A stretch of 64,000 bases of DNA from a virus: positions 1 to 64,000 of IMG/VR virus record IMGVR_UViG_3300020471_000623; one strand, written 5' to 3'. Below the pieces are notes generated by a model, which was not told the origin of the DNA, did no database searches, and saw only the letters and a program-made list of their open reading frames with translations. Shown piece by piece: positions 8,800 through 36,198 of this stretch. Numbering within the stretch: position 1 is the stretch's first letter; each line of letters opens with the position of its first letter. Made by a program: the position numbers and the translations under genes.

Positions 8800-9258
8800 A
8801 TGGCTTATAGTAAAGAAGTAGTAAAAAGATTTGAAGAAGTAACAAACAATCCAGCAGCACACGGAGTAGGTAGGTTTGACCCTAACGACCCACATGTAGC
8901 TACAGGACTTACAGGCGCACCTGCTTGTGGTGATGTTATGAAGTTAGATCTAAAGTTAGACCCAGAAACAGATAGAATTTTAGATGTTAAGTTTAAAACC
9001 TATGGTTGTGGTTCTGCTATCGCTAGTTCAAGCATGTTTGTTGAAATGCTAACAGGTCTTACAATCCAAGAGGCAAAAGAAATAAAGGATAAAGATATTG
9101 CAACAGCACTAGATTTACCACCTATTAAGATACATTGTTCTGTATTAGCAGAAGATAGTATTAAGAGAGCTATCCAGGATTGGGAAGAAAAGAAAGCAGG
9201 AAGAAACACTACTTGGTTAGAACAAATGGGAGCTACTAAAAAGAATGACAGTAAATAG
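8800..9258 (+). CDS. iscU: IscU-type Fe-S cluster scaffold protein
   Basis: Scaffold on which [2Fe-2S] clusters are built before transfer to target proteins. All three family cysteines are present: C43 in GAPACGDVMKL, C70 in TYGCGSAIASS and C113 in KIHCSVLAE; the D45 two residues after the first Cys is also conserved. At 152 residues it is slightly longer than bacterial IscU (128) because of a polar tail. It overlaps the IscA gene by 14 bp. It has no local cysteine desulfurase, so sulfur must come from the host or elsewhere in the phage. Confidence 0.93.
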   Translation: MAYSKEVVKRFEEVTNNPAAHGVGRFDPNDPHVATGLTGAPACGDVMKLDLKLDPETDRILDVKFKTYGCGSAIASSSMFVEMLTGLTIQEAKEIKDKDIATALDLPPIKIHCSVLAEDSIKRAIQDWEEKKAGRNTTWLEQMGATKKNDSK

Positions 9259-9610
9259 TTTTATACCTGTTCAAACTGTTAGTCGTATGATAGACTTTAC
9301 GCCTATAGGCAGAGAGAAAGTTATTGAAAGACTATCAGAAGAGAATAAAAAAGGTGTAAGATATAGTTTACTAGGTGGTGGGTGTGCAGGATTTAGTTAT
9401 GTATTTGACTATGCAGACGAACCACAAGAAGGAGATATAGAATTAGACTTTGAAGATTTTAAACTATGGGTCTGTCCTATATCAGAGAAATATTTAAAAG
9501 GAACAGTTATAGATTGGAAGAAACAAGGATTGAATCAACAGTTTATATACATGAATCCTAATGAAGCTAGCTCATGTGGTTGTGGAACATCTGCTAGTTT
9601 TGAATTATAG
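9245..9610 (+). CDS. iscA: IscA/HesB-type Fe-S carrier protein
   Basis: A-type carrier that receives or delivers Fe-S clusters. The three ligands are present: C47 in GGGCAGFSY, and C111 and C113 in the C-terminal SCGCG. Length 121 is typical. The ATG lies inside the end of iscU, so scaffold and carrier are translationally coupled. The first 15 residues are an extra polar extension compared with IscA, and ATG codons at 9245 and 9287 are both possible starts; I keep the first for its overlap with iscU. Confidence 0.92.
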   Translation: MTVNSFIPVQTVSRMIDFTPIGREKVIERLSEENKKGVRYSLLGGGCAGFSYVFDYADEPQEGDIELDFEDFKLWVCPISEKYLKGTVIDWKKQGLNQQFIYMNPNEASSCGCGTSASFEL

Positions 9611-14539: not shown

Positions 14540-15421
14540 ATGGGAAAGTTAAGATATTCAGAGGTATTTTATAGCGTCCAAGGCGAAGGCAGATTCGTAG
14601 GTGTTCCTAGTGTCTTCCTCAGAGTCTTTGGTTGTAATTTTGAATGCGCTGGCTTTGGACAAGAACGTGGTAAACTAATTGCTACAGATCAGATGCCTTA
14701 CTTTACAGACCCTAAAGCAGATAAGAATCATCCTGAGGCATATAAGAGTATTGAAGAATTGCCTGTTACTCCTATAGGTTGTGATAGTTCTGCTAGTTGG
14801 GCTATGAAATATAAACATTTACAATTAACTGAAACAATAGAACAAGTCCAACAAAGAATTATAGATTTACTTCCTAATGGTAAGTATGATGAAAGAGAAG
14901 ATATACATCTAGTTATTACAGGCGGAGAACCTTTATTAGGTTGGCAAAGAGTATGGCCTGAACTATTAGAACTAGGCAGAAGTATAGGATTGAAGAACGT
15001 TACATTTGAAACAAATGGAACACAGAATTTACAAGATCAATTTATAGAATATTTAAATGGAGATGGCAAAGATATACATGTTACATGGTCTACATCTCCT
15101 AAACTATCTATCTCAGGTGAGGAACAATTTGACGCACTTGTTCCTGAAGTATTGGTAGATATGAATAAGGTTACGAATAGTCATTTATATAATAAATTTG
15201 TCGTTAGGGATATAAATGACTTTGAAGAAGTAGATACTTTCGTGAACGCATACAAAGAGGCAGGTGTAAAATTAGATGCTGTCTATTGTATGCCTGAAGG
15301 TGCTACATTAGAACAACAAACACTAACGGCAAAAGGTGTTGCTGAGGCATGTATGAAAACAGGCTACAAATATAGCCCTAGGTTACATATAGATTTATTT
15401 GGTAATGCCTGGGGAACGTAA
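14540..15421 (+). CDS. queE: QueE, 7-carboxy-7-deazaguanine synthase
   Basis: Radical SAM enzyme converting 6-carboxytetrahydropterin to 7-carboxy-7-deazaguanine (CDG). The N terminus SEVFYSVQGEGRFVGVPSVF is the family signature. C32 and C36 (GCNFECAGF) plus C81 (PIGCDSSASW) are the likely cluster ligands: the third Cys sits after an insertion of about 44 residues, in place of the compact CxxxCxxC. GGEPLLGW at 128-135 binds SAM. At 293 residues it is longer than E. coli QueE (223). It works with FolE and QueD downstream. Confidence 0.9.
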   Translation: MGKLRYSEVFYSVQGEGRFVGVPSVFLRVFGCNFECAGFGQERGKLIATDQMPYFTDPKADKNHPEAYKSIEELPVTPIGCDSSASWAMKYKHLQLTETIEQVQQRIIDLLPNGKYDEREDIHLVITGGEPLLGWQRVWPELLELGRSIGLKNVTFETNGTQNLQDQFIEYLNGDGKDIHVTWSTSPKLSISGEEQFDALVPEVLVDMNKVTNSHLYNKFVVRDINDFEEVDTFVNAYKEAGVKLDAVYCMPEGATLEQQTLTAKGVAEACMKTGYKYSPRLHIDLFGNAWGT

Positions 15422-18960: not shown

Positions 18961-20002
18961 TCTAGAGTATGTAGAAACACGCTATACTGCACAATGGAAA
19001 ACAGAATTTCCACAGTCTATAGCAGACTCTACAGGCAATGATGTAACAATTATAGAAGGTCCAGCAGATATAGCTGGAGAACCTACACCTGGTGCCTTCT
19101 TAGACTTTGCAGGCACAAACATTTACAAGTCTGCACAAGTAGCACAGATGTCTATGTTCTTTAGAGAAGGCAAAGTAAAAGATGGAGATCATTTTGTATT
19201 TGCAGATGCTTGGCACCCTGGTATTTTACAACTTAAATACATGCTAGAACTATTACAAATAAAAGGCACTATACATGCACTATGGCATGCAGGCAGTTAT
19301 GATAAACATGACTTCTTAGGTAGACTAATAGGAAACAAACCTTGGGTAAGACTTACAGAACAAGCACTATTTCATTCTATAGACAAAAATTATTTTGCTA
19401 GTAACTTTCATATAGAATTATTCCTAAATACATTTGGAGAAGATTGTGCAATACAAGAAAAAATTGTAAGAACAGGCTGGCCTATGGAATACTTAACACC
19501 TGTATTACAAGCAGATACAGTAGGCACAGAAAAACAAAATTTAATATTATTTCCTCACAGAAATGCACCTGAAAAACAGTTGAACATATTTGAGGACTTA
19601 AAGAAAGAATTACCTGAATACAATTTTATGAATTGTCAGGAACATAAATTAACTAAAAAGGATTATCATAAACTTCTAGGCGAGGCAAAGATGGTCTTTA
19701 GTGCTAATTTACAAGAAACATTAGGTATATCTTGTTATGAGATATTAAGAACAGGAGGTGTTCCATTTGTTCCTAATAGATTATCTTATACTGAGATGTA
19801 TGAAGATATATTTTTATATCCTAGTGAATGGACAGAGACTTGGAAGTCCTATCAGGAACACAAAGAAGAAATAAAAGAAAGAATTGTTTATTTTATGGAC
19901 AATTTTAATAGCAACGAAATACAAGGTGCTATTAATACAAATAGAGACATGCTCGAGGAACAATACTTCTCGGCATATAACTTATATAAGGAGCTTATAT
20001 GA
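18944..20002 (+). CDS. GT-B type glycosyltransferase
   Basis: 352 residues. The C-terminal NLQETLGISCYEILRTGGVPFVPNR is the donor-binding signature of GT4-like glycosyltransferases (E, then G-x-P), and NLILFPHRNAPEKQLNIF resembles the start of the donor domain. The N-terminal half holds HALWHAGSYD. Because it stands between the DpdA-like gene and QueD, it may glycosylate modified phage DNA, but a protein or glycan acceptor is equally open. It ends in an ATGA overlap with queD. Confidence 0.75.
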   Translation: MIYLFDLEYVETRYTAQWKTEFPQSIADSTGNDVTIIEGPADIAGEPTPGAFLDFAGTNIYKSAQVAQMSMFFREGKVKDGDHFVFADAWHPGILQLKYMLELLQIKGTIHALWHAGSYDKHDFLGRLIGNKPWVRLTEQALFHSIDKNYFASNFHIELFLNTFGEDCAIQEKIVRTGWPMEYLTPVLQADTVGTEKQNLILFPHRNAPEKQLNIFEDLKKELPEYNFMNCQEHKLTKKDYHKLLGEAKMVFSANLQETLGISCYEILRTGGVPFVPNRLSYTEMYEDIFLYPSEWTETWKSYQEHKEEIKERIVYFMDNFNSNEIQGAINTNRDMLEEQYFSAYNLYKELI

Positions 20003-20460
20003 ATATGAGAAATTTTAAATATTTTTCTACAAAGACTTATGGACATGAAGAAGGATTGTCTTGTGCTTTTAGACAACCATTGGCAACACATAGTCATTGC
20101 AGTCTATTACATGGATACGCTTTATCATTTTCATTTAAGTTTGGTTGTGATATGTTAGATGACAAAAATTGGGTCGTAGACTTTGGCGGTTTGAAAGAAC
20201 TAAAGACTTGGTTAAAAGATAACTTTGATCATAAGATAACTGTATGTAAAGATGACCCTGAAATAGAAAGAATACTAAAATTACAAGACGAAGGATTGGC
20301 AGAAGTGGTTGTAATGAATGGTGTAGGCTGTGAAAAGTTTGCAGAACATGCGTTCCATTTTGCTAATGATCTTGTTAGTAAACAAACTAACGGGAGATGC
20401 TTTGCAGTCTCTTGTGAAGTAAGGGAACACGGAGCTAACAGCGCTATATACGAGGGCTAA
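19999..20460 (+). CDS. queD: QueD, 6-carboxytetrahydropterin synthase
   Basis: Converts dihydroneopterin triphosphate to 6-carboxytetrahydropterin, the QueE substrate. The site ATHSHCSLLHGYAL gives H31, C34 and H38; the normal HGH is HGY here, so the second of the two histidines is replaced. NWVVDFGGLKELKTWLKDNFDH (D77-H78) and the end CEVREHGANSAIY are family blocks. Length 153 is standard. Possibly a phage variant with a different third zinc ligand. Confidence 0.85.
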   Translation: MNMRNFKYFSTKTYGHEEGLSCAFRQPLATHSHCSLLHGYALSFSFKFGCDMLDDKNWVVDFGGLKELKTWLKDNFDHKITVCKDDPEIERILKLQDEGLAEVVVMNGVGCEKFAEHAFHFANDLVSKQTNGRCFAVSCEVREHGANSAIYEG

Positions 20461-25841: not shown

Positions 25842-26255
25842 ATGAAAAAGAAAGTATATTTAGATTTAAAAGTAAAATCGATTATTTCAGTGCTAGTAAT
25901 ACTAGGTATCATACTTTACGCAGCTCCTATTAAGGCAGCTGATACAAGAGATGTAATAGCTGGTGTTATTATAGGTGGGATTATAGGTTCAGAGATTGAG
26001 AAGGCAAATGAAAGAGCTGGAACAACTGTTATATATCCTAATAATCCTAGAGTGCCATATGGACATAACTCTGTAAGAGAGTATCGTTACTATGAGAAAC
26101 TTCCTAATGCTATAACATATTGCAGAATGCCAATGGATACAATATATGTTCCAGATAAAAGGAATTTTGATCCTCGTCGTGACCCTTTATATTTAGGTGA
26201 ATGGCATTGGTCAGCACATGAGCAAGCGTGGATAAGAGACACTCGACAAAAATAA
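25842..26255 (+). CDS. Exported protein with glycine-zipper segment
   Basis: 137 residues. Residues 1-32 form a signal peptide or anchor (basic start, hydrophobic ISVLVILGIILYAAPIKAA, cleavage near Ala32). Next is DVIAGVIIGGIIGSEI, a short glycine zipper as in outer-membrane lipoproteins, and then a periplasmic Tyr/Arg/Pro-rich part. It lies upstream of the TonB-dependent receptor gene by 18 bp and could be its partner, but that is only context. Confidence 0.65.
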   Translation: MKKKVYLDLKVKSIISVLVILGIILYAAPIKAADTRDVIAGVIIGGIIGSEIEKANERAGTTVIYPNNPRVPYGHNSVREYRYYEKLPNAITYCRMPMDTIYVPDKRNFDPRRDPLYLGEWHWSAHEQAWIRDTRQK

Positions 26256-26273
26256 TATTAATTAAGGAGTGAT

Positions 26274-27839
26274 ATGAAAAATATTATGTATTGTATGGCT
26301 ACGGTCATACTTTTATTCAGCATGTCTGGAGCTTATGCCTCAGATATTGAAGAGGTAATTGTTGTAGGAGCTAAGGTTAGTTACAGCAACAGTGACCCAG
26401 AAAGTGAGTCAAATGCTATGGAAGCAATTGACCCAACAAGAGTATTCCAAGCAGGAGGCTTAGGTGGTTTTAATGCAGCTACAATAAATGGAACTGATAC
26501 TAAACACACAGCAGTCTATAGAAATGGAATACCTGTAAATGACGTAGGTAATGGTTGGTATGATTTTGGAACAGAACTATCTCAGAACCAAATATACAAA
26601 ATAATATCAGGACCTAATAGTGCTATATACGGCAGTTCTTCTATGGGAGGAACAATACTTATTGAAGACTCATTTGAAAGACAAGCATTCTTTCAAGCAG
26701 GTGAGGATACATATAAAGTTATGGCAGGTAATGAGTTCATTAATGTAGGACAATATAGAGGTTCTACAGGAAGTGCTAAATCAAATAACACAGAAAAAGA
26801 TTTCTTTGAAAACACAACGGCTAGAAGTAAATTTGTATTTGGAGATTGGTCTATCAATACCAATCATCAGAAATATGAAACAGATTATGACGGTTGTTGG
26901 AATGCTAATTGGGAAGAAGTAAATGATTGTGTCAGTAAAGGAGAGAAACATGATGTGTCTATTAGAGGTGATTGGCTAACAGTTGGTTATTCTAGAAATG
27001 ATGCACAGTTCTATACAGAAGGAGTTCAAACTTGGTCAGCAGTAAGTGAAAGATATTTTGCTGATGCTAATAAAGAAGTAACTGAAGGTGTAGTAATAGG
27101 ATTACAAGGACATAGAGAGGAATACGGACCTAATTGGGACGAACACCTAGCAGCTTATTTAAATGTTGAACATGTAGATGACGACATGAATAAGATTGGT
27201 TTCTCATATAGATTTGAGGAGAAGGAAAGTATATTTAGATTAGGTGGTGAGTATGGATTATTTAGAATCTCAGCAGCTAATAGTATTCGTAAACCTAACC
27301 TATATGAAAGGTATGGAGATGGATTTGTAAGTGCTAATCCTTTTCTAAAACCTGAAATAGGTAAAGGTATTGAAATGGGATACGACCACTTCTCGGCATG
27401 GTTTTATAGATTCTCAGAAAGTATTGAGTATGACTTTGTAGGTCAACAATATATAAATGCTGGTGGTTATGAATCTAAAGGTGTTAAGTATGACAATTAT
27501 ATAATGTCAGACTATGGAAATTTTGGTGTGTTATTAGTATATCAAGTTACTGATAAAATTAGAATTCCTAAATACAAATCTAAACTATCATGGTTTGATG
27601 GTGACGATGAATTTGATTATGAACTATCTTGGATTGCACAAGTAGACAGAGGCAATGACTTTGATGGCTCTGCAATAGAAGATGTAAACACAATCAACCT
27701 AGATCTTGGCTGGAATTTAGGACCTAATTATAGGATATCACTAGCTATAAATGACATTCTCGATCGAGAATTTGAGGTTTTACCAGGATATGGAGCTGGC
27801 GGAAGAACAGTTTATCTTGGTTTGCGCCTAACTTATTGA
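26274..27839 (+). CDS. TonB-dependent outer-membrane receptor
   Basis: 521 residues. A signal peptide (MKNIMYCMATVILLFSMSGA, cut after residue 22) is followed by a TonB-box-like DIEEVIVVGA. The plug spans about 55-130, with VYRNGIPVNDV and IISGPNSAIYGSSSMGGT, the usual GP-S-x-YG-x-x-x-GG element. The rest alternates aromatic beta strands; the last strands (AINDILDREFEVLPGYGAG, then YLGLRLTY) fit the BtuB-like end with a terminal aromatic. It is shorter than most receptors (600-800) but no plug or barrel end is missing. Ligand unknown; neighbours suggest cobalamin. Confidence 0.85.
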   Translation: MKNIMYCMATVILLFSMSGAYASDIEEVIVVGAKVSYSNSDPESESNAMEAIDPTRVFQAGGLGGFNAATINGTDTKHTAVYRNGIPVNDVGNGWYDFGTELSQNQIYKIISGPNSAIYGSSSMGGTILIEDSFERQAFFQAGEDTYKVMAGNEFINVGQYRGSTGSAKSNNTEKDFFENTTARSKFVFGDWSINTNHQKYETDYDGCWNANWEEVNDCVSKGEKHDVSIRGDWLTVGYSRNDAQFYTEGVQTWSAVSERYFADANKEVTEGVVIGLQGHREEYGPNWDEHLAAYLNVEHVDDDMNKIGFSYRFEEKESIFRLGGEYGLFRISAANSIRKPNLYERYGDGFVSANPFLKPEIGKGIEMGYDHFSAWFYRFSESIEYDFVGQQYINAGGYESKGVKYDNYIMSDYGNFGVLLVYQVTDKIRIPKYKSKLSWFDGDDEFDYELSWIAQVDRGNDFDGSAIEDVNTINLDLGWNLGPNYRISLAINDILDREFEVLPGYGAGGRTVYLGLRLTY

Positions 27840-27868: not shown

Positions 27869-27909
27869 CACTCTGAGGGCTTGACAATAGGTTCCTCAGA
27901 GTGCATAAT
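27869..27909 (+). promoter_or_regulatory. Host-type promoter with long inverted repeat, before cobT-like gene
   Basis: TTGACA (27881-27886), 17-bp spacer, CATAAT (27904-27909). CACTCTGAGG (27869-27878) and its exact complement at 27894-27903 enclose the -35 box with a 15-bp gap. The spacer carries GGTTC and AGAG. ATG 27948 is 39 bp downstream with AAGGA in between. Confidence 0.8.
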
Positions 27910-32390: not shown

Positions 32391-32714
32391 ATGACATTCG
32401 TCGTCGGTTCACCTTGTGTAGGTTGCAAAGATACAAAGTGCGTTACAGTATGCCCTGTGGATTGTTTCCACGAGGGTCCTAACATGCTTGTAATCAATCC
32501 CGACGACTGTATTGATTGTGGACTTTGTGTTCCTGAATGTCCTGTATCAGCAATATGGAGTGAAGATGAAGTCCCTGCTGAGGAGATAGAATTTATAGAA
32601 ATAAATGCCAAAAAAGCATATGAATGGCCTGTTATAGATGAAGAGAAAGAGCCTATGGCACATAAATCTCCCCACACAACAGCAGAAGCTATAGCAGTAG
32701 TTCTACTAGACTAA
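32391..32714 (+). CDS. fdxA: FdxA-type ferredoxin
   Basis: Low-potential ferredoxin with one [3Fe-4S] and one [4Fe-4S] cluster expected. The sites are [18 protein letters not shown] and [16 protein letters not shown], and the 107-residue length is standard for FdxA. It starts four bases after the previous gene. It could donate electrons to the radical SAM enzyme 12 bp downstream or to host reductases. Confidence 0.92.
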
Positions 32715-32720
32715 TAAATA
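32713..32720 (+). promoter_or_regulatory. Possible late box AATAAATA before the radical SAM gene
   Basis: 7 of 8 matches. The expected start 6 bp after the box is 32726, exactly the A of the ATG, so it would be leaderless. Weak by itself. Confidence 0.3.
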
Positions 32721-32725
32721 CATAT

Positions 32726-34279
32726 ATGAATCATGGAATGATATTAGGTTGTCTCCAGGCACATCCTGGTTGGCAAGGGCAGGGTAAAGACAATAATTGG
32801 ATAAGTCTAAAACGTTCTGCTGGTTCTCATAAAATTGCTAGTTTTATGAGGAAAGAAGGTTGGGATATTGAAGTCATAGATTATTGGTTAGCATTTACTG
32901 AGGAAGAGTTTCAAACATTAATTAGAGCTAGAGTAACAAGTGATACAAAATTTATAGGAGTATCTGTTACATTTGGTTTCAGAGGAGATACTCTAAAAAG
33001 AGCACAAGATAATCTTACATGGTTAAAAGAAAACTATCCAGATATCATGATCGTTGCAGGTTCTAAATCCATTAGTGATACAATGAACTTACCTTGTGAT
33101 TATTATGTAACAGGTTACGGAGAGTTTGGACTACAACATCTATTAAATGGAACAGCAAAGATAACAGATTTTCAAGGCAAGAAGGTTGTAAATTCAGATA
33201 AAGATCATCCATGTTTTCCTCAAAAAGATTTAGTAACAAGATACGAAGAAAGAGATTTTATACAACCAACGGATACTTTAACCTTAGAACTATCCAGAGG
33301 ATGCAAATTTAAATGTAAATTTTGTTCTTACAATGCTATAGGATTGAAAGGCGACATTGATAGAGATATGTCTACACTATATGCAGAGCTAAAAGAAAAT
33401 TATGAGAAGTGGGGTGTAACAGATTACCACGTAGCAGATGAAACAACAAACGACAACACAGAAAAATTAAGACGAGCTGCTGAGGAGATTAGAAAATTAC
33501 CTTTCACACCTAACATGACAGGATTTATTAGAGCAGATCTTTTAATATCCAGAGAACATGATAAAGAGTATTTGGCAGAGATGGGATATTGGGCACACTT
33601 CTATGGTATAGAAACTTTTGACCAAAAGGCAGGACAAGTAATTGGTAAAGGTATGAATAGGGACAAACAGAAACAAGGTTTGTTAGATCTCAGAGATTAC
33701 TTCTGGAAACAATGTGGTAGATATCGTAGCACAACATCTCTTATTGTAGGTTTACCTTACGAAACAAGACAGTCATTATTTGATGGTTTAGATTGGCATA
33801 AAGAGAACTTTCCAAAAGAAAACTTACAGATAAATATATTGTTCATAAATAAATTTGCAGAACATTTAGGAGATATGTTTTCTCAATCTGATTTTGATAT
33901 GACTTGGAAAGATGGAAAACACTTTCACGAAAGATTAATACAGGATGATGAGGAAGTAGAAGCAACACCAGAAGCATTTGTTGATGGCCTTAAACATTTA
34001 TGGTTTAACTATAAAAGACATTCTGCTTTACCCTGGTCTCATGATACATTTAATTGGTGGACAGCACATCTTGCAACAAGAGATATCTACATGTCTAATA
34101 AAAATTATATGAGAGATAGAGGCCCTATGAATTGGGACTTATTTAATTTTACAACTCCTGGAACATATGATTGGGATAGTGTATTAGAAATGTCTTATGA
34201 TGATTATGATGAAGAAAGATTGGAAAAAGATACAAAATTACATATCCAAAAATATAAAAATGCTAAGTTAAACGTATAA
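32726..34279 (+). CDS. Radical SAM enzyme with N-terminal B12-binding-like domain
   Basis: 517 residues. Residues 1-150 have the Rossmann-like pattern of cobalamin-binding domains in radical SAM proteins (strands with IEVIDYWLAF, KFIGVSVTFGFRG and IMIVAGSKS). The cluster motif CKFKCKFC is at about 193-200, followed by the barrel with HVADETTNDN and SLIVGLPYETRQS. No His loop for lower-axial cobalt binding is certain. With ferredoxin upstream and CobS/CobT nearby, a cobalamin-using radical SAM enzyme is likely; substrate unknown. Confidence 0.75.
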   Translation: MNHGMILGCLQAHPGWQGQGKDNNWISLKRSAGSHKIASFMRKEGWDIEVIDYWLAFTEEEFQTLIRARVTSDTKFIGVSVTFGFRGDTLKRAQDNLTWLKENYPDIMIVAGSKSISDTMNLPCDYYVTGYGEFGLQHLLNGTAKITDFQGKKVVNSDKDHPCFPQKDLVTRYEERDFIQPTDTLTLELSRGCKFKCKFCSYNAIGLKGDIDRDMSTLYAELKENYEKWGVTDYHVADETTNDNTEKLRRAAEEIRKLPFTPNMTGFIRADLLISREHDKEYLAEMGYWAHFYGIETFDQKAGQVIGKGMNRDKQKQGLLDLRDYFWKQCGRYRSTTSLIVGLPYETRQSLFDGLDWHKENFPKENLQINILFINKFAEHLGDMFSQSDFDMTWKDGKHFHERLIQDDEEVEATPEAFVDGLKHLWFNYKRHSALPWSHDTFNWWTAHLATRDIYMSNKNYMRDRGPMNWDLFNFTTPGTYDWDSVLEMSYDDYDEERLEKDTKLHIQKYKNAKLNV

Positions 34280-35429: not shown

Positions 35430-35615
35430 ATGGACGAAGATAAATTAGAGGTTACTCTTAGAGAGGCAACCAATGGTTGGATTGTAGAATTCAACAGAAG
35501 TGGTGAAACTGTAGAATACATTTTCACAAGACCTAACCCAGCTATCTCATTAGTTAGAAAAGTAATGAAGGGAGAGCTAGATGTATTTGGAACGGAGGAT
35601 GACATCGATGAGTGA
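35430..35615 (+). CDS. Small protein downstream of gp45
   Basis: 61 residues, ATG 9 bp after the clamp stop with AAGGAGACGTT. LREATNGWIVEF and EYIFTRPNPAI look like a beta hairpin, then an acidic helical end. It overlaps the peroxiredoxin start by 8 bp. I know similar small genes beside gp45 in marine phages but no function. Confidence 0.65.
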   Translation: MDEDKLEVTLREATNGWIVEFNRSGETVEYIFTRPNPAISLVRKVMKGELDVFGTEDDIDE

Positions 35616-36198
35616 GTTAGCAACAAGTTTACCAGCAGTTAAATTTAAGAAACATGTAAAGGCAACTGATGGTATTGCAAGATGGGTTGATATAGACATA
35701 TCAGAGTTGGCAGAAGGTAAAAAGATTGTAATCTTTGGATTGCCTGGTGCTTTTACTCCTACATGTTCTAGTCAACAACTACCTGGTTTTGAGGAAAACT
35801 ATTTTCTATTTCGAGATGCAGGTATAGATGATATTTATTGTGTGACAGTAAATGATACTTTCGTATGCAGTAAATGGGCAATGGACCAAGAGCTTGCCAA
35901 TGTAAAAGTATTACCAGATGGTAGTGGAGAATTTACAATTAAAATGGGTATGGACGTTAGGAAAGATAACCTAGGGTTTGGTATGAGATCTTGGAGATAT
36001 GCAGCAGTATATGACGATGGCATGCTTGTCTGGTCAGGTGTTGAAGAAGGATTTGGAGATAATTTTGAGGGTGACCCTTATGAAGTTTCTAAACCTGAGA
36101 ATGTCCTAGAAGCTGTGAAAGGTTTGAACTTTACTAAAGGTAAAGAGATAAATTTGGACTTTTCAGATACGACAGATGTTAAGGAGACTTTTTCGTAG
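35608..36198 (+). CDS. Peroxiredoxin (Prx5/AhpE-like)
   Basis: 196 residues. The peroxidatic Cys is C53 in FGLPGAFTPTCSSQQLPG, the Prx5 pattern; C78 and C87 could resolve it. The ARWVDIDISELAEGKKIVIF start is typical. ATG 35608 is preferred over in-frame ATGs at 35581 and 35599 because GGAGG lies 9 bp upstream. It may protect from peroxide during infection, perhaps reduced by the glutaredoxin at 23437. Confidence 0.9.
   Translation: MSELATSLPAVKFKKHVKATDGIARWVDIDISELAEGKKIVIFGLPGAFTPTCSSQQLPGFEENYFLFRDAGIDDIYCVTVNDTFVCSKWAMDQELANVKVLPDGSGEFTIKMGMDVRKDNLGFGMRSWRYAAVYDDGMLVWSGVEEGFGDNFEGDPYEVSKPENVLEAVKGLNFTKGKEINLDFSDTTDVKETFS

Follow-up and report, generated by a model that had tools for sequence, protein, structure and literature searches.

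BtuB, the vitamin B12 transporter of Escherichia coli (1NQH, 2GSK), consists of a TonB box, a plug and a 22-stranded barrel. Its cobalamin contacts lie in loops L2–L5, with residues 227–233 in L3, beside a five-aspartate calcium cage (PMC7360065), and the segment unfolded by TonB comprises residues 23–73 (PMC5413942). Among phages, SusC-type TonB receptors have been reported in marine megaphages such as Mar_Mega_1, with carbohydrate uptake as the proposed role (PMC9723777). In the pelagiphage Polarivirus skadi, a TonB-dependent receptor protein was reported and taken as evidence of receptor use (PMC10504331). The phage exclusion proteins T5 Llp and Cor are small periplasmic lipoproteins that jam a host TonB receptor (PMC9586334).

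The receptor described here, from an uncultured marine phage, differs from each of these. The megaphage SusC-like protein is also a phage-encoded TonB-dependent receptor, but it has 805 residues against 521 here, belongs to a different phage group and shares only 11% identity (query TM 0.64). Among predicted viral structures, our receptor had a single significant match, a SusC-type receptor from a marine phage (BFVD A0A8D9FQQ5), and no SusC family model of Pfam or NCBIfam matched the receptor or its relatives. Polarivirus skadi is likewise a marine phage said to encode such a protein, but that protein lies among virion genes and no sequence match to the present receptor was found in the phage collection. 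Llp and Cor are also tied to an outer-membrane TonB receptor but are not receptors themselves. We found no BtuB-type phage receptor family in the literature searched, and the clade appears to be undescribed. Cyanophages and other T4-like phages carry auxiliary metabolic and nutrient-uptake genes, whose proposed logic is to supply a limiting nutrient during infection. Our receptor shares this proposed logic, whereas those genes encode an enzyme or a periplasmic binding protein rather than an energised outer-membrane vitamin-type receptor.

The receptor gene and its predicted fold

The window is a stretch of 64,000 nucleotides from an IMG/VR virus record of 82,084 bases (IMGVR_UViG_3300020471_000623), and open reading frames were called over the record. 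The phage gene set noted in the original prediction was recovered by name: capsid (gp23), portal, tail, UvsW, gp46/47, clamp and other genes place the record, on gene content, among the T4-like Kyanoviridae marine myoviruses. The gp23 major capsid protein was 71% identical to that of Methylophilales phage Melnitz and 70% identical to that of Pelagibacter phage HTVC008M.

The receptor gene is an intact frame of 521 codons with an ATG start (Table 1). The original description of a signal peptide, a TonB-box-like segment and a plug in this frame agreed with the ORF, with inspection and with the Pfam Plug model PF07715 (30.0 bits, E 8e-7, cut-off 23.9), which matched 32 of 32 family members. The segment IEEVIVVGA is TonB-box-like as judged by inspection and by conservation in the alignment, with E26 kept in 78 of 78 members and V30 in 75. 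By eye, residues alternate in the C-terminus TVYLGLRLTY in the manner of an outer-membrane barrel signal. The Pfam barrel model PF00593 was not found above its cut-off in the window receptor; it matched 3 of 32 members and appeared in 2 of 30 records. This miss would reflect a receptor sequence too diverged for the model, and the predicted fold does contain a barrel. Searched alone, the receptor had no match by sequence in the PDB and one weak match, of unknown function, in PHROG.

Table 1. Positions in the window of the receptor gene, its parts and its upstream neighbour.
Feature	Position	Strand	Basis or remark
BtuB-like TonB-dependent receptor gene	26274..27839	+	ORF, PF07715, AF2 model, Foldseek BtuB
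Shine-Dalgarno AAGGAG	26264..26269	+	sequence
Signal peptide, residues 1-22, predicted cleavage AYA/S	26274..26339	+	inspection; N-terminal hydrophobic stretch across members
TonB box-like IEEVIVVGA, residues 25-33	26346..26372	+	alignments
Plug core, residues 60-132, the large domain with the highest conservation	26451..26669	+	Pfam, alignments
Predicted 22-stranded barrel, residues 137-521	26682..27836	+	AF2 secondary structure
Extracellular loop 2 region, residues 167-176, invariant N172, E174, D176	26772..26801	+	aligns with BtuB TDND 192-195 calcium/cobalamin loop
Region of extracellular loop 3 (residues 201-219); Y201, D206 and the Cys pair C208/C219 invariant	26874..26930	+	aligns with BtuB 225-245 cobalamin loop
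Small glycine-zipper protein (exported; 137 aa), 18 nt before the receptor	25842..26255	+	no Pfam family

Relatives were found by stepwise alignment. A scan of viral contigs with the single receptor sequence gave no match, so that alignments were needed. A related 161-kb phage contig carries a full-length copy, 41% identical, at another position; an alignment of these two sequences retrieved 49 viral contigs, and a 32-member alignment (A2) retrieved relatives in at least 292. The view that phages use but do not encode such receptors was therefore too strong, given this family and the SusC-type proteins of megaphages. Each of the 156 full-length copies has an open frame, and at 95% identity 78 of them are distinct.

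An AF2 model computed from A2 (pLDDT 83.7, pTM 0.83) contained a plug and, by DSSP count, 22 strands, and thus predicts a plug inside a 22-stranded barrel. In a Foldseek search of the PDB with this model, the top ten matches were all BtuB (best E 3e-20, query TM 0.78). The A2 profile matched E. coli BtuB over nearly its full length (E 6e-25, 91 bits), and the next TonB receptors scored 20–26 bits. Together with sequence and synteny, these results bear out the proposed BtuB-like barrel, and by profile and fold rank the receptor is closest to BtuB among TonB receptors. The best NCBIfam matches were also BtuB models (E 1e-11), at scores far under the curated cut-offs: 40.1 bits against 599.7 for TIGR01779 and 43.8 bits against 836 for PRK10641. 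TIGR01779, the TonB-B12 model, matched 28 of 32 members, none of which came near a curated BtuB cut-off. Because both these scores and the plug length fall short, we did not assign the receptor to BtuB itself. The receptor shares about 20% identity with bacterial BtuB, its barrel is shorter, and its N-terminal plug is shorter by about 18 residues.

Conserved ligand side and possible roles

We compared conservation across the domains of the family. The mean fraction of the top residue was 0.72 in the plug core, 0.61 in the extracellular loops, 0.47 in the strands and 0.29 in the periplasmic turns, and the dN/dS of 600 receptor pairs had a median of 0.18 and a maximum of 0.30. These sequence comparisons indicate strong purifying selection on the TonB box and on plug and loop residues of the ligand side. 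Acidic and tyrosine residues of loops 2 and 3 align with BtuB: at about 20% identity, where loop alignment is uncertain, D193–D195 of BtuB fall on the invariant N172/E174/D176 and N228–D230 on D204-Y205-D206, and no counterpart of BtuB D241 was found. Unlike the aligned BtuB, the phage receptors carry in loop 3 a cysteine pair that is invariant in 78 of 78 members. Between the TonB box and the plug core, 17–18 BtuB residues are missing in nearly all members and about 21 in four; the missing stretch of about 18 residues falls within the segment of BtuB that TonB unfolds (residues 23–73). On present evidence, sequence and model suggest that the receptor works like BtuB.

Probably, the phage has a BtuB-like transporter of its own, through which infected cells would take up cobalamin or a related corrinoid by means of the host TonB-ExbBD; ligand, TonB use, timing and benefit are the parts that we infer. 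Of the roles originally offered, raised nutrient uptake of the cobalamin type is the one most favoured by the strong constraint on the TonB box and on plug and loop residues of the ligand side. During infection, Sec would export the receptor, and the Bam machinery would insert it into the outer membrane of the host. Ligand binding would fall to the plug apex and loops 2, 3, 7, 8 and 11, and host TonB-ExbB-ExbD would pull the TonB box and unfold the shortened N-terminal plug segment, releasing the ligand to the periplasm. A phage-carried energiser was considered and rejected, as ExbD was found in 0 of 30 related records. Many marine microbes are limited by B12, and infected cells would gain extra B12 for the steps that depend on it in B12-poor marine conditions. 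The sinks may be methionine synthesis and the methyl cycle of the host, whose methionine synthase is a possible consumer, and perhaps radical-SAM enzymes of the phage that carry a B12-binding domain.

Genes for such enzymes occurred in 10 of 36 receptor-bearing records and 3 of 32 control records; as the records are fragmentary and related, this excess is suggestive only. At one locus (L089, 5377–6840), a B12-binding radical-SAM gene directly follows the receptor. In the window, a ferredoxin-like gene is followed by a radical-SAM gene (together 32391–34279; the latter 32726–34279), whose product had a weak B12-binding match of 22 bits, below the cut-off, and no match in a second search. Some further links to B12 were rejected. 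We searched for a cobalamin riboswitch that could control the receptor and found none. A link to a B12-dependent phage ribonucleotide reductase fails too, since the phage has class I NrdA/NrdB and the NrdJ cut-off was reached in 0 of 30 related records. In several loci of the UvsW gene order (L109:9560-12208, L118, L199, L200 and others), genes for SAM synthetase, APRT and a methylthioadenosine/SAH-nucleosidase-like protein, by sequence most of a putative methyl-cycle salvage set, lie a few genes downstream of the receptor. MetK and APRT are present in the receptor-less lineage as well, so this linkage lacks specificity. The nucleosidase turned up only alongside the receptor, a pattern confounded by lineage.

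A more tentative, though quite plausible, proposal is that T4-like marine phages have for a long time inherited their own streamlined cobalamin transporter, whose pruned plug is opened by TonB with less unfolding, and that lytic infection thereby reprograms B12 uptake at the host outer membrane. If so, viruses would take a direct part in the competition for B12 in the sea. With a virus family that supplies its own vitamin-type receptor for the outer membrane, TonB-energised vitamin uptake would join the metabolic changes driven by viruses, and the naturally shortened plug offers a test case for how TonB opens such gates.

Another scarce ligand, such as haem, a siderophore-bound metal or a small molecule, could be carried by a phage-owned TonB-dependent transporter on the same BtuB-like scaffold. 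Haem/transferrin receptor models weakly matched 23 and 18 of 32 members, the invariant loop 3 cysteines are absent from aligned BtuB, and an iron-rich phage gene set (ferredoxin, A-type Fe-S carrier) would profit from iron. BtuB nevertheless ranks clearly first by profile and fold, and the conserved loops are those aligned with the ligand loops of BtuB, so that we regard a different ligand as rather unlikely, if a serious competitor.

BtuB-like receptors commonly serve as phage receptors, and other phages and bacteriocins would face a changed receptor landscape if a virus family brought its own. The protein might flood the outer membrane for superinfection exclusion or as a decoy, masking, displacing or absorbing competing phages or bacteriocins; T5 Llp achieves exclusion by jamming a TonB receptor (PMC9586334), and for the related phage Melnitz an exclusion role of phage-encoded surface proteins has been proposed (PMC9004378). 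The phage-facing extracellular loops are, however, conserved rather than diversified over 78 divergent members, which makes the masking role put forward earlier less likely, and a decoy has no need of a conserved TonB box and plug. We consider this role improbable.

The short plug might instead leave a leaky channel that aids lysis or nutrient leakage late in infection, as the missing residues lie in the very segment that TonB unfolds. This is a far-fetched reading, since the AF2 model keeps the plug in the barrel, the TonB box is retained and no late promoter is nearby.

Inheritance of the receptor in phages

We examined 206 loci, 179 of which contained a receptor copy. The receptor occupies only a small set of fixed positions among core phage genes: it lies between a ClpP-like gene, with or without a small exported protein gene, and peptidase and CobS genes (n = 17, including the window), after a membrane coiled-coil gene (n = 7), or between an AAA ATPase gene or one of two unknown genes and UvsW (n = 48); six cases were unclassified. 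On the receptor tree, which has only two bacterial outgroups, both on long branches, these contexts required only five changes. Of the 70 loci in the UvsW lineage that could be classified, 54 had the receptor and 16 had AAA directly followed by UvsW; its presence and absence required two changes on the AAA tree. Receptor distances correlated with the distances measured for core genes next to it (Mantel r 0.44–0.81, p 0.0005). The receptor is stably inherited, and it is a phage-owned gene rather than a lone host gene.

Host contamination, or recent capture of a useless host gene, could be imagined because a TonB receptor is unusual in a phage and no cultured phage record holds a relative (tblastn of 50,697 phage records), but identical gene orders in independent contigs, co-divergence with neighbours, the dN/dS of 0.18 and codon usage ordinary for the phage make it very unlikely, indeed nearly negligible, and no relative turned up in either of two scans with motifs over 84,980 bacterial and archaeal genomes.

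In many members of the UvsW order (L101, L115, L123, L124 and L127 among them), the hydrophobic segment is preceded by a conserved signal n-region of unusual length, MNxFDKNFHxNFSPLYA, unlike that of ordinary signal peptides. The gene preceding the receptor in the coiled-coil order is a relative of one for a protein of 474 aa that combines membrane segments at its N-terminus with a long coiled coil (L002:14157-15580, L086:27-1367).

Neighbouring genes and expression

Small exported proteins precede the receptor in most relatives of the ClpP-like/peptidase/CobS order (e.g., L218:1549-1992, L225:1501-1968, L230:1405-1998). They share a conserved glycine-zipper segment, ADTSDVIAGIIFGGILGSEIQK, and the small protein is a possible membrane partner of the receptor. 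The CobS-like and peptidase genes were considered as a cobalamin module and rejected; both occur in phages without the receptor, and their adjacency is probably incidental.

The T4 late consensus TATAAATA occurred in 16 copies, all on the coding strand; 5 of 100 shuffles also reached this number, so the count by itself carries little weight. None lay between 12810 and 34274, so late expression of the receptor as a virion part seems unlikely from the sequence. Between the receptor and peptidase genes, a perfect 10-bp inverted repeat, CACTCTGAGG...CCTCAGAGTG (27869–27909), sits within a strong sigma-70-like promoter (11 of 12) and looks like an operator or attenuator.

Elsewhere in the window are genes for an A-type Fe-S carrier and a peroxiredoxin (9245–9610 and 35581–36198). 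QueE-, QueD- and QueC-like genes (14540–15421 and 19999–20460 in the window; L002:11395-12081) suggest 7-deazaguanine synthesis, perhaps for DNA modification.
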